Source: an uncultured Dysgonomonas sp.
GTDB lineage: Bacteria > Bacteroidota > Bacteroidia > Bacteroidales > Dysgonomonadaceae
DNA: 64,000 nt
Direction of reading: 5' to 3'
Assembly (NCBI RefSeq): GCF_900079725.1
Contig: NZ_LT599032.1
Location: 2,254,253 to 2,318,252, forward strand
Part shown: piece by piece, positions 13,133 through 51,089 of the stretch
Layout: each line of letters begins with the position of its first letter
How positions within the stretch are numbered: position 1 is the first letter of the stretch
Made by a program: the position numbers and the translations under genes
The notes under the pieces: generated by a model
Databases searched by the model: none
Told to the model about the DNA's origin: nothing
What the model saw: only the letters and a program-made list of their open reading frames with translations

Positions 13133-13682
13133 AATTGCCCCCACTTTTAAGTGGAGGGTATGTAGGAATAGATAAAAATGGCTTTAGCCAAAACTGAGAT
13201 TAAAATGTCTTATCTTAAAGTATATATTCATTGTGTATGGAGTACGAAAAATAGGATTCCGTATCTTAACTCAATTGAATTAAGACAAAAAGTATGGCAT
13301 CATATTAAAGAAAATGCGATAACGAAAGATATTTTTATAGATTCTATTTCCGGTTATTCAGATCATTGTCATTGTATAATATCACTTGGTATAGATCAAA
13401 CAATTCAAAAAGTGATGCAACTAATTAAAGGAGAATCCTCTTTTTGGATAAATAAGTCTAAGCTAATTAATCAAAAATTTGAATGGCAAGACGAATATTT
13501 TGCATTGTCTATTTCAGAATCAATGATTGGTAGGGTGAGAGAATATGTGTTGAATCAAGAAGTACATCATCGTAAAAAAACTTTTCAGGAAGAGTTTGAT
13601 GAGTTTATCAAGAAGTATAATTTCGACTAAAGTCATTTTATATATTACATTTGAGAACCTCCAGCTAAAGCAGGAGGCAATT
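13133..13682 (+). mobile_element. IS200/REP-transposase-like element with terminal hairpins
   Basis: The stretch starts AATTGCC and ends GGCAATT. Its two ends are inverted copies of each other: the first 27 bases match the reverse complement of the last 27 at 20 positions. Each end forms a hairpin: the left one has CCACTT (13141-13146) pairing with AAGTGG (13149-13154), the right one CCTCC (13658-13662) with GGAGG (13673-13677). The differences lie mostly in the inner stem and loop, and both versions still pair. A third palindrome, GGCTTTAGCC, is at 13180-13189. Subterminal hairpins around a Y1 transposase gene are the hallmark of IS200/IS605 and REP elements. No target duplication is expected or seen. 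Exact ends are inference. Confidence 0.6.
13208..13630 (+). CDS. IS200-like Y1 (HUH) transposase, REP-associated type
   Basis: The 140-residue protein has the fold signature of TnpA-type HUH transposases: the metal-binding H54-C55-H56 pair on a strand, WQDEYFALSIS near residue 94, and the candidate nucleophile Y114 in REYVLNQEVHH. Such enzymes cut and join single-stranded DNA at hairpins. The gene is intact. An earlier ATG at 13178 lies in frame but sits within a palindrome at 13180-13189, and the N-terminus from 13208 (MSYLKVYIHCVW) is the usual one. It is more AT-rich than its neighbours, which fits transfer. It lies between murC and ftsQ in the same direction, so it need not block operon transcription. 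Confidence 0.85.
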   Translation, partial: SYLKVYIHCVWSTKNRIPYLNSIELRQKVWHHIKENAITKDIFIDSISGYSDHCHCIISLGIDQTIQKVMQLIKGESSFWINKSKLINQKFEWQDEYFALSISESMIGRVREYVLNQEVHHRKKTFQEEFDEFIKKYNFD

Positions 13683-47153: not shown

Positions 47154-47858
47154 ATGTTATCACAAAAATATGGTCGTACATATCATTTTCCGTTTTCACC
47201 CGGAACTACCAGTGACGACCGGATAAACCATACATACCGGGACGATATCCAACAGATAAAAATCCTTGTGCATACAGAAAAACTGGATGGAGAGAATAAC
47301 TGCCTCAACCGGTTCGGTGTCTTTGCTCGTTCACATGCGGCACCGACCACTTCGCCCTGGACAAACCAGCTACGCGAACGATGGGAATTAATAAAGCGAG
47401 ACTTAGGTGATATAGAACTGTTTGGCGAAAATCTGTATGCAATACACTCTATCGAATACAAGCGGATAGAGTCTTATTACTACGTGTTTGCAGTGCGATG
47501 CCTCGATAAATGGTTGTCGTGGGACGAAGTGAAATTCTATGCTGCGATGTTCGATTTCCCTACTGTCCCTGAATTGGATATTCAGCAGGTAAAGAGCCTA
47601 CCTGACAATAGACTCGAACAGCAGATATTGGCTTGGGCACAGCTACCGAGTGTATTCGGTTCCATCGATACACAAACCGGCGAAGATTGTACACGTGAAG
47701 GAATTGTCACCCGTAATGCGGGTGAATACCTTATCGGCGACTTCTCTCACAATGTATTCAAATATGTCCGTAAAGGGCATGTAAAAACAGGAGAACACTG
47801 GACCCGTAACTGGAAACGTGCACGTTTGGTTTGGGAAAGGCTAGTAATTAACAAATAA
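47154..47858 (+). CDS. RNA ligase (Rnl2-like nucleotidyltransferase)
   Basis: ATP-dependent RNA ligases seal 3'-OH and 5'-phosphate ends. The 234-residue protein has all core motifs: motif I with nucleophile K43 in E-K43-LDGEN, motif III in LFGENLYAIHSI, motif IV in TREGIVTRN and motif V in FKYVRKGHV. It lacks an obvious extra C-terminal domain, so it is a minimal ligase. The HD-Pnk gene starts 5 bp after its stop. Together they should heal and seal broken RNA. The ATG is preceded by an A-rich leader. Confidence 0.9.
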   Translation: MLSQKYGRTYHFPFSPGTTSDDRINHTYRDDIQQIKILVHTEKLDGENNCLNRFGVFARSHAAPTTSPWTNQLRERWELIKRDLGDIELFGENLYAIHSIEYKRIESYYYVFAVRCLDKWLSWDEVKFYAAMFDFPTVPELDIQQVKSLPDNRLEQQILAWAQLPSVFGSIDTQTGEDCTREGIVTRNAGEYLIGDFSHNVFKYVRKGHVKTGEHWTRNWKRARLVWERLVINK

Positions 47859-47863
47859 AATAT

Positions 47864-48979
47864 ATGATTATGACTTGGAAATTAACACAAAATAAAGACT
47901 GGCAATCGCTCGAAAAACAATTTTCGTGGGTTGCGGATATGAAAAATGTAATACAACACAAAAGTCATCATGCCGAGGGGAATGTAGCCATCCACACGCA
48001 AATGGTACTTGATGAATTGACAAAGATACCCCGGTATGAAACATTATCCGAACAGGAGCAGGAGATATTGTGGGCAGCCGCACTGATGCACGATGTGGAA
48101 AAACGTTCTACTTCGCAGGATGAAGGTAATGGGAATATCTCGGCTAGCGGACATGCCCGCAGGGGAGAATATACTGCACGGAATATCCTGTTCAAGGATG
48201 TCCCTACGCCTTTTGACATCCGCGAAAAAGTAGTTTCACTGGTTCGTTTTCATGGTTTGCCTCTGTGGCTGATGGAAAAATTGGAACCGGCCAAAAAGAT
48301 TCATGCAGTATCGCTGAGAGCTAATACCCGTCAGCTAAAAATGTTGGCCGAGGCTGATGCCCGGGGTAGAATCTGCAAGGATGGAGAAGCGTTAATTGAA
48401 TCATTAGACTTATTTGAAATGTTCTGTAAAGATGAAAGTTGCTGGGATAAGGCGCTGGAGTTTCCGACGGCAAGTGCCCGATACGAATATTTCAATACAA
48501 TAGATGGTTATATCGGTTATATTCCCTACGATGATTTCAAATGTGAAGTCACGATACTATCCGGATTGCCGGGAATGGGAAAAGACCATTACATACAATC
48601 ATTGAAACCGGATATCCCGGTCATCAGTCTCGATGCTATCCGCCGTAAGCACAAATACAGTCCGACGGACAGATCAGCAACGGGTCGTGTAGTACAGGAA
48701 GCGAAAGAACAGGCACGTGTATATTTACGAAAAAAACAGGACTTCGTATGGAATGCTACCAATATTACACGCTTGATGCGTCAGCAACTTGTCGATTTAT
48801 TTACACTGTATGGCGCAAAAGTAAGGATAGTGTATGTGGAAAAACCGTATGATGTGTGGCGCAATCAGAACCGTAACCGTGAATTCCAGTTGCCTGAAAA
48901 TGTACTGGACAAGATGTTGCTGAAGCTCGAAATACCCCAGTTGATAGAAGCCCATGAGGTAGAGTATATGGTTGAATAA
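47864..48979 (+). CDS. HD-Pnk: HD phosphoesterase fused to 5'-OH polynucleotide kinase
   Basis: The 371-residue protein matches the HD-Pnk type known from Runella slithyformis, with the same length. The N-terminal HD domain has H44, H76-D77 (ALMHDVEK) and later HARRGEYTARNIL; it removes 2',3'-cyclic or 3'-phosphate ends. The C-terminal kinase has the P-loop G234-LPGMGKD-241, SLDAIRRKH and RNQNRNREFQLPENVLDKM, and phosphorylates 5'-OH ends. The products are the ends its ligase partner uses. ATG 47870 is an alternative start two codons later. Confidence 0.92.
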   Translation: MIMTWKLTQNKDWQSLEKQFSWVADMKNVIQHKSHHAEGNVAIHTQMVLDELTKIPRYETLSEQEQEILWAAALMHDVEKRSTSQDEGNGNISASGHARRGEYTARNILFKDVPTPFDIREKVVSLVRFHGLPLWLMEKLEPAKKIHAVSLRANTRQLKMLAEADARGRICKDGEALIESLDLFEMFCKDESCWDKALEFPTASARYEYFNTIDGYIGYIPYDDFKCEVTILSGLPGMGKDHYIQSLKPDIPVISLDAIRRKHKYSPTDRSATGRVVQEAKEQARVYLRKKQDFVWNATNITRLMRQQLVDLFTLYGAKVRIVYVEKPYDVWRNQNRNREFQLPENVLDKMLLKLEIPQLIEAHEVEYMVE

Positions 48980-49043: not shown

Positions 49044-49421
49044 ATGTATAAATTAATGGTAAGCCTACTTGCAATGGCTTTATTTTTAGGTTCCTGCGGT
49101 AGTTCAAAAAACACGGAAAAGTTGACTGTAGCCTCCAAGCAGGGTGATTGTGTAGGAGTAGCACCAATGAAATGCCTTTTGGTAAAAAAAGACGGCCAGG
49201 CAGACTGGGAATTCTTTTATAGCAATATAGAGGGTTTCGTTTATGAACCCGGATACGAATATGTATTGGAAGTAAAAGTCGAAAAAGTAGAGCATCCTGC
49301 AGCAGATCAGTCTTCGTTAAAGTATACTTTGGTAAAAGAAGTTTCTAAAGAGGAGAAAACATCGGATAAGCTCCCCGATATGCCAACCGGAGATGATTTA
49401 CAGCCCGAACCTGTGGAGTAA
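49044..49421 (+). CDS. DUF4377-like lipoprotein
   Basis: The 125-residue protein has a lipoprotein signal with C18 (LFLGSCGSS). The body matches the DUF4377 pattern: CVGVAPMKCLLVKKDG, WEFFYSNIEGFVYEPGYEY and HPAADQSSLKYTLVKEVSK. The role is unknown; the domain is often found in small envelope proteins related to heat-shock HslJ. A proline- and acid-rich tail ends the protein. It stands 64 bp after HD-Pnk, perhaps on the same transcript, and is closed by a terminator. Confidence 0.78.
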   Translation: MYKLMVSLLAMALFLGSCGSSKNTEKLTVASKQGDCVGVAPMKCLLVKKDGQADWEFFYSNIEGFVYEPGYEYVLEVKVEKVEHPAADQSSLKYTLVKEVSKEEKTSDKLPDMPTGDDLQPEPVE

Positions 49422-49447
49422 ATCAATATCTCTTTGATTATATAGAT

Positions 49448-49480
49448 AAAGGACGGTTTTATTTAACCGTCCTTTATTTT
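49448..49480 (+). terminator. intrinsic terminator after the DUF4377 gene
   Basis: AAAGGACGGTT (49448-49458) pairs with AACCGTCCTTT (49465-49475) around a 6-base loop, followed by ATTTT. Confidence 0.92.
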
Positions 49481-49682
49481 ATTATTTAAGTGAATCAGTA
49501 GTTGGATATTAATGTTCAATTACATTAGTCGTTTTTGAGTCGTCTACACTCCTCGATTGTTAATTCGAGACTCGGCATAATCAAAATAAATTTTGCTTCT
49601 GCTCTCGCTACTTAAAACGTTCTATTTTTTAACGCATAGAGACTATCTTAATTTAAATTAGAGGTTTTTAGCTCATTACTGC

Positions 49683-50140
49683 CGCGCCCTCCCGGGCTTG
49701 TCCTTCCTTTTGGCATTGCCCAAAAGGAAGCAAAAAGCTAGCGCTAAGTTCCTCGGCGACCCAAAACCGTTTTGACGGCTGAATCAAACACACGGGCTAT
49801 TGCCCCGTTTGATTCTACGCCGTCTGCAACGGATTGGGTACCCCGCCTGCGTCACTAATGCGCAAGGGCTGACGCACGTGAGGCTAAAGCATGAAGAGCC
49901 TCTGCCCTGTCGCCGCATCGCGGTAACGGCCTCGTCCCGCAGGCGGGGCACCCAATCCGTAAAGCGGAGGTGTAGGGCAAAATAGGATAGCTGCTATACA
50001 CGGCTGATAATCCGGCTAGAGATGATTCCGTATTATTTTGCCCCACCGGAGTTGCGGTTTTGGGTCGACGGAGGGATGCAGCCTTGATTTTTGTAACTTT
50101 TTATCAAGAAAAAGTTAAGAAAAACAAGCCAGCTGGCGCG
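49683..50140. ncRNA. large multi-branched structured element (candidate ncRNA or structured repeat)
   Basis: GC-rich insert in AT-rich flanks. Outer pairing: CGCGCC (49683-49688) with GGCGCG (50135-50140), GGCTTG (49695-49700) with CAAGCC (50125-50130). Terminal hairpins: 49703-49713 with 49720-49730 (11 bp) and 50095-50102 with 50109-50116 (8 bp). Closing stem: CGACCCAAAACCG (49757-49769) with 50055-50067, 13 perfect pairs, extended by CCTC (49751-49754) with GAGG (50071-50074). It encloses three helices: A, 49774-49779 with 49819-49824 and 49782-49789 with 49807-49814; B, 49829-49851 with 49938-49960 (22 of 23 pairs), topped by 49880-49885 with 49897-49902; C, 49975-49984 with 50034-50043 plus GGTG (49969-49972) with CACC (50044-50047). 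I do not recognise a named RNA class. Strand and transcription are unknown. Confidence 0.55.
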
Positions 50141-50280
50141 TTAGAAAAAATAGAATATTTAATCCCAACGACTAATCCATAAAACTTTATGTTAAAAAAG
50201 ACAATCATTTCCAACTGCATTTATCTATACTGAAAAACAATTGATGAAATCGTCTAGACTTTTTATTTTCATATCTTTTT

Positions 50281-50342
50281 GTCATGCTGACGATAGGAAA
50301 CATCTCGTTTCTCAAGAGATTTTTCACTCCGTTCAAAATGAC
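50281..50342. repeat. dispersed palindromic repeat, copy A
   Basis: GTCAT (50281-50285) pairs with ATGAC (50338-50342), and GAAA plus ATCTC (50297-50306) pair with GAGAT plus TTTC (50316-50325). The sequence resembles copy B at 51235-51304. Such GTCAT...ATGAC palindromes with an ATCTC/GAGAT core are common between genes in Bacteroidota. Confidence 0.7.
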
Positions 50343-50420
50343 AAAGAGGGTATTTGTCTCATAATGTTACCAGATTCAAAAAAGTATAGACGACTTCGAT
50401 AATAAAAAATTTTTAATCTT

Positions 50421-51089
50421 ATGGCAAAGTATAACGAGAGTGTAGCAGAAACGATTGTTTCGCTGATAGAGGATGATTTTTGTTCGGTAGCGGAAATTTG
50501 CAGGGTGACGGGTATCAGCCGAAAGACTTTCTACTGCTGGAAAGAGACTGTGCCGGGTTTGGCTAAAGAAATATTCGACGCGGAATGCAGGCGTGAAGAC
50601 AGGATCAGGCAAATGTTATATTCATCCCTTAAAAAGAGGCTGGACGGGCATATGATGGTAGAAGAGAAAGAAACATTCCTGCCGGACGAACTTGAACCGG
50701 AAAAACTGGTTCTACAATCGAAAGTTATCCGCAGGAAATATTGCCTGCCAGACCTGAAAACAATTAAACTGTTACTGGACAGGCAGGATAGAATTGCTCT
50801 TTCCAAAAAGAATGAGGAAGATATCCCAGAGGAGATGGATATACATATTATCGACACAACTACTCCAACTGATATCGAAAATGAAATAACTGAACACATC
50901 GAGGAAAGCGAGATTGTTCCGGCAGAGGAAAAAGAAAGCCTTGTTGATGACCCCGAAGAAGCTGAAGCAAAGATAATGCTTGACAGGCTGTACAGGCTCA
51001 AGGCTGAACGGATACGCACGATAAAAGCGAGTAATAACCATCCTATATTCAGCCCGGCAGGAAAGAGAGGAAAGAAACGGAGAAAATAA
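50421..51089 (+). CDS. HTH protein resembling phage terminase small subunits
   Basis: The 222-residue protein has an N-terminal helix-turn-helix (VSLIEDDFCSVAEICRVTG followed by ISRKTFYCWKE) as in phBC6A51-type terminase small subunits and transposase HTH domains, then a helical part with charged pairs. A long acidic stretch covers about residues 135-180 (IEESEIVPAEEKESLVDD), and the C-terminus is basic (GKRGKKRRK). No terminase large subunit or other phage gene is near. It lies alone between two copies of the dispersed palindrome. DNA binding is likely; the actual role is unknown. Confidence 0.55.
   Translation: MAKYNESVAETIVSLIEDDFCSVAEICRVTGISRKTFYCWKETVPGLAKEIFDAECRREDRIRQMLYSSLKKRLDGHMMVEEKETFLPDELEPEKLVLQSKVIRRKYCLPDLKTIKLLLDRQDRIALSKKNEEDIPEEMDIHIIDTTTPTDIENEITEHIEESEIVPAEEKESLVDDPEEAEAKIMLDRLYRLKAERIRTIKASNNHPIFSPAGKRGKKRRK

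Follow-up and report, generated by a model that had tools for sequence, protein, structure and literature searches.

In Porphyromonas gingivalis, a member of the Bacteroidales, a miniature inverted-repeat transposable element (MITE) named BrickBuilt has been described. It is intergenic and multi-copy, is built on 23-nt tandem direct repeats, and segments of it are reported to have bidirectional promoter activity (PMC4596501). BOX of Streptococcus pneumoniae is a modular composite of 67-637 bp, made of boxA, a variable number of boxB and boxC, with terminal repeats, target duplications and extensive predicted folding, and some of it is expressed (PMC3049150). Correia and enterobacterial repetitive intergenic consensus (ERIC) elements are small inverted-repeat elements whose transcripts fold and are cleavable by RNases (PMC10969869, PMC3049150), and BIME/REP repeats (bacterial interspersed mosaic elements and repetitive extragenic palindromes) are mosaics of palindromic units in intergenic DNA (PMC3049150). 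We compared these systems, as far as the available parts of their accounts describe them, with an element in a 64,000-nucleotide stretch of the genome of an uncultured Dysgonomonas sp. (assembly GCF_900079725.1, contig NZ_LT599032.1, positions 2,254,253 to 2,318,252 of the forward strand; hereafter, the window), in which an initial annotation had marked positions 49683-50140 as a large structured sequence.

We propose that this stretch represents one member of a MITE-like family of non-autonomous DNA transposons with two outward arms selected as folded single strands, a reading that we consider very likely. Like BrickBuilt, it is an intergenic, multi-copy, MITE-like element of a Bacteroidales genome, but the printed terminal repeats of BrickBuilt differ from those found here (PMC4596501) and no direct-repeat family was detected in 49600-50250. 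With BOX, compared by description only, it shares a modular composite build, terminal repeats, target duplications and folding; in place of boxA, boxB and boxC it has two homologous outward arms of exchanged types. Correia and ERIC elements resemble it as inverted-repeat elements with folding, but are shorter, and the consulted parts of their accounts describe no paired interchangeable homologous arms (PMC10969869, PMC3049150). It is a palindromic mosaic in intergenic DNA as BIME/REP repeats are, but has terminal inverted repeats and target duplications, and no link to a Y1-type transposase gene was found. MITEs and composite repeats are thus the nearest known kinds; the literature found, as far as available, holds no account of this element, which we regard as a variant not described there.

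About 46 dispersed element loci were found in the 5.2-Mb genome (L151-L153 were excluded from locus scans), and 45 of the 46 overlap a neighboring open reading frame (ORF; crude calls of at least 90 aa) by 60 bases or fewer. The elements are bounded by an inverted repeat around ATGCGAATCAGTAGTTGA, which flank comparison extended to a shared terminal inverted repeat of approximately ATGCGAATCAGTAGTTGAgTTTTAAyGTT. Of 25 genomes of the genus, 16 carry the exact 13-base core, 119 times in all, against one occurrence of the reversed pattern, and paired ends delimit candidate units of 55-718 bp. When the outer flanks of 54 candidate end pairs were compared (five loci contribute two candidates each, four of them overlapping), they agreed in a single register (z 6.6, 0 of 500 shuffles), while z ranged from -2.1 to 2.1 in the remaining 12 registers. 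The excess sits in about six AT-rich positions and marks a target duplication of 5 to 9 bp, the exact size being masked by near-fixed edge positions; 16 of the 54 pairs match at 8 or 9 of 9 flank positions, compared with 8% of cross pairs. The family is nearly restricted to one genus, probably Dysgonomonas. The exact motif of one arm type (Z, see below) has 18 sites in this genome and is absent from a class-level sample of 295 other genomes that holds no further member of the genus or family, and plasmid and phage collections gave no element match at E 1e-5.

Empty sites were sought by joining the flanks of 11 elements, of which six were searched in the 25 genomes; seven junctions were aligned. 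For the element at 335032-335695, the flanks are contiguous at 92% identity in the relative G019, where the empty site can be followed almost to the base, next to a gap of 4 bases. Flanks of the 831246-831907 site are contiguous in G004 at ~71%, and those of 1210575-1211162 in five genomes at 72-74%; both sites are occupied in G019 by elements of the same composition as here. The other aligned junctions are too diverged and show only that the flanks adjoin, and among the matches listed in the 25 genomes for site 4009364, none crosses the junction. The copy and empty-site check proposed with the initial annotation therefore speaks for a mobile repeat, with many copies, terminal inverted repeats, target duplications and empty sites in relatives. 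In these respects its suggestion of a structured mobile element mobilized in trans holds; the words "in trans" remain our inference, as no transposase was found. Together with a length under ~1 kb, an intergenic location and the lack of any ORF of at least 80 aa in the window copy, the terminal inverted repeats, the family-level target duplication and the copy number correspond to what defines a MITE. In a crude scan, 7 of the 46 loci each contained a single ORF of 90-149 aa.

Two further observations concern mobility. In G019, the two flanks map to opposite strands for the elements at 960905 and 3346604, at distances of 27 and 26 kb, respectively (the two intervals are G019:C41 23394-49885 and G019:C42 70439-97741). 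These elements thus sit at a synteny break, which suggests rearrangement at elements. In G011, a minimal 55-bp unit (L214 504-558) has two exact ends, little beyond the two terminal repeats, and no arm.

The window copy has the following parts:

49489-49521, plus strand: left terminal inverted repeat, with core AATCAGTAGTTGG at 49493-49505, a pattern site with 2 mismatches
49522-49669, plus strand: AT-rich spacer from terminal repeat to arm, recurring partly in some other copies (flanks compared by eye)
49670-49863, minus strand: X arm, the structured domain read from center to end (outer limits approximate)
49703-49730, minus strand: tip hairpin of the X arm, with covariation across 50 copies
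49755-49851, minus strand: B block (49755-49769) and D block (49829-49851), which pair locally and close a variable hairpin (49781-49815); B:D and hairpin pairs covary
49864-49910, no strand assigned: center where the arm types are joined and X, Y and Z matches end, with GCTGACGC at 49868-49875 (limits approximate)
49911-50140, plus strand: Y arm, the same structured domain reading outward (outer limits approximate)
50148-50181, minus strand: right terminal inverted repeat, diverged, with core at 50165-50177 and 6 mismatches to the pattern

The ~460 bp first marked are thus the folded stretch, and the full unit between terminal repeats is longer, at approximately 49489-50181. Homology between the window copy and the syntenic locus L145 breaks off at 49483, immediately outside the left terminal repeat.

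Most elements consist of two homologous structured arms that face outward from the center, with types X, Y, Z and others in several combinations. A covariance model of one arm type, aligned from 40 of 41 listed X arms (L194 was left out), found two arms in 29 of 40 loci of this genome, the second arm always being divergent. In the window it matched the X arm at 49701-49852 on the minus strand (E 8.7e-39, the window copy being among the 40 training sequences) and the Y arm at 49937-50119 on the plus strand (E 5.8e-9). A separate MAFFT alignment served for counting covariation, because the first alignment had put the ACCCAA subtype one column out of register; 53 X rows were aligned and 50 kept (L058, L060 and L174_980 were dropped). 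For 35 pairs fixed from the window sequence, a set that omits position 96/144, formerly counted as a pair, and two others, 93.4% of cells were Watson-Crick. Double changes affected 18 pairs and 141 cells, compared with a mean of 39.5 cells in shuffles that ignore relatedness (0 of 300 reached 141) and 5 to 22 cells with slid partners. Single-helix shuffles do reach the observed number of doubly changed pairs (61 of 300 for B:D, 43 of 300 for the variable hairpin), but the whole set was not reached.

The same X rows, together with Y and Z arms (38 of 40 Z sequences kept; L164_1542 and L212 dropped), show a directional signal. Stem mismatches favor G-U on the outward, center-to-end strand by 110 events to 53, unpaired columns serving as a control show no strand bias (258 versus 283), and X, Y and Z arms each favor the outward strand. 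Because the bias is confined to stems, each arm has probably been selected as a folded outward strand, most likely as RNA.

The initial annotation had drawn the stretch as a single cloverleaf, and the helices it named are present in the window copy: a closing stem of 15 of 16 pairs (49754-49769 / 50055-50070, spanning 317 bases), a long helix of 22 of 23 (49829-49851 / 49938-49960), a third of 12 of 13 (49972-49984 / 50034-50046) and terminal hairpins at 49698-49735 and 50078-50133. Folding also exceeds chance. The plus strand of the 458-base stretch folds at -216.1 kcal/mol (shuffles -154.7, sd 7.0; z -8.75) and the minus strand at -221.3 kcal/mol (z -9.32), with 0 of 100 shuffles as good on either strand. 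Nor does the stretch hold a convincing gene: no ORF of at least 80 aa overlaps 49683-50140 (ATG/GTG/TTG starts, table 11), and a protein-coding reading was rejected on this ground. No Rfam family matched within the window at gathering score, in agreement with the failure to name an RNA family, and when three element loci were searched permissively, the two matches obtained were far under threshold (E 0.34 and 0.84) and neither was credible.

The cloverleaf as one large non-coding RNA is nevertheless very improbable in our view. The strong global fold and the absence of an ORF would suit it, but halves of the element occur in other combinations, target duplications are present, and in seven of nine two-arm X-Y copies 3 to 8 pairs of the 23-pair helix are mismatched or gapped (a tenth, L019, is gapped there). 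The two long-range helices comprise 39 pairs, of which 22 vary and one has a double change (2 cells), whereas in five local helices within arms 18 of 42 vary and 12 have double changes (21 cells). Pair covariation thus supports the within-arm helices and not the long-range ones, and the idea of an RNA survives for each arm alone, which looks selected as a folded outward strand. Compensation is seen within the arms, and the long-range helices are a by-product of arm layout; the long stems arise because both arms carry similar blocks in inverted order.

Several observations weigh against our interpretation. The closing stem holds 13 to 15 of 16 pairs in nine of ten X-Y copies, as a single RNA would predict, and the window copy reaches -216 when folded globally against -172 with its parts folded separately; the global fold is most stable in this copy because its two arms share one subtype. 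Taken by itself, the Y arm shows a weak strand bias (28 versus 18 events), and the event counts ignore recombination between copies. A full Bacteroidetes-type promoter motif (TTTG-N18-22-TAnnTTTG) was found in one of 119 arm sequences, both strands considered. In the window copy no matching target duplication is visible by eye and the right end is diverged, and for these reasons this copy is probably a recombinant. In a search of this genome for rve and DDE_Tnp_1 transposases, the five IS3-like and five IS21-like copies (rve) proved to have other ends, and DDE_Tnp_1 is absent.

The same data can be read in other ways. The arms might be DNA-level fold-backs used in transposition or recombination, with the bias arising at a single-stranded DNA stage in which the strands whose 3' ends lie at the terminal repeats are exposed; we regard this as unlikely, though it accommodates the mobility of the element, the outward strand favored in all three arm types, the flanks displaced by 26-27 kb on opposite strands at two of six tested sites, and G-T pairs, which are tolerated in DNA too. 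Terminal-repeat transposition is not known to include a stage at which both outward arms would be exposed, and the armless unit with two exact ends implies that arms may be dispensable for mobility. Harder to accept, and improbable in our judgment, is that a mutational process (templated correction of imperfect palindromes, or conversion between copies) keeps the hairpins perfect without selection. Whole hairpin arms are indeed replaced as compensated blocks among copies, and halves are exchanged, but such a process predicts no difference between A-C and G-U mismatches, contrary to the stem excess with unbiased unpaired columns. One might also take the element for a BIME/REP-type repeat that relies on a REP-associated tyrosine transposase (RAYT) for its movement. 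This would fit a palindromic mosaic in a genome with one Y1_Tnp gene, itself in the window, yet we give it hardly any credence: the hairpins flanking that gene differ from the element by eye, and the elements have terminal inverted repeats with target duplication, features that Y1 enzymes are not known to make.

A parent transposon for the MITE-like element was sought among the rve and DDE_Tnp_1 transposases of this genome and among end pairs of fetched loci, and was not found. A 2.1-kb end pair in G018, considered as an autonomous partner, seems instead to combine a single element (L205 1901-2574) with a separate end next to a 250-aa ORF. The Y1_Tnp gene (IS200-like or RAYT-like) at 13178-13630 is the genome's only PF01797 match and has its own small inverted repeats, and a RAYT/REP link was discarded on its different hairpins; the ORFs beside it are presumably murC and a cell-division gene. 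At 50421-51089 lies a gene for a 222-aa helix-turn-helix (HTH) protein similar to the small terminase subunits of phages (PHROG E 3.7e-6). It has 19 matches in this genome, six with an element no more than 600 bp away and a seventh with a terminal repeat alone, and two copies share a 979-bp, 97.5% identical block starting in the element's right end; in other genomes it is near the element in 2 of 94 fetched loci. We rejected it as the element's own protein, since it adjoins several copies but forms a separate gene family. Another repeat (GTCATGCTGACGATAGGAAACATC...) lies between element and HTH gene at 50281-50343 and also upstream of other HTH copies. Of two adjoining genes at 47154-48979, one has an RNA ligase domain (PF09414) and the second an AAA_33 domain together with a sub-threshold HD match; they are possibly an RNA repair pair. 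A terminator role was likewise set aside, as loci are not enriched where neighboring genes converge (28 tandem, 11 divergent, 4 convergent and 3 undetermined of 46, by crude ORFs); terminator-like sites in 49400-50500 number 3, versus 1.3 in shuffles.

We envisage that a transposase acting in trans would move units bearing these ends, and that recombination between copies would swap their arms. The arms may act as folded single strands, likeliest as outward RNAs or as the distal part of read-through transcripts, and such RNAs would shield, process or tune neighboring transcripts. Our tentative extension, which is possible but for now doubtful, is that the transposon's cargo is a pair of divergent, interchangeable copies of one structured RNA domain, with X, Y, Z and other variants selected as outward RNA and reshuffled beside host genes by transposition and arm swapping. 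Folding in bacterial MITEs is easily read as a passive outcome of inverted ends. Here it can be assessed independently of the ends, as dozens of copies in many genomes carry the two homologous arms in shuffled form, and the strand-specific wobble, with its unpaired-column control, suggests directional selection on the fold itself. If the outward transcripts are real, this family would be a natural combinatorial experiment on how RNA from mobile repeats affects neighboring genes.
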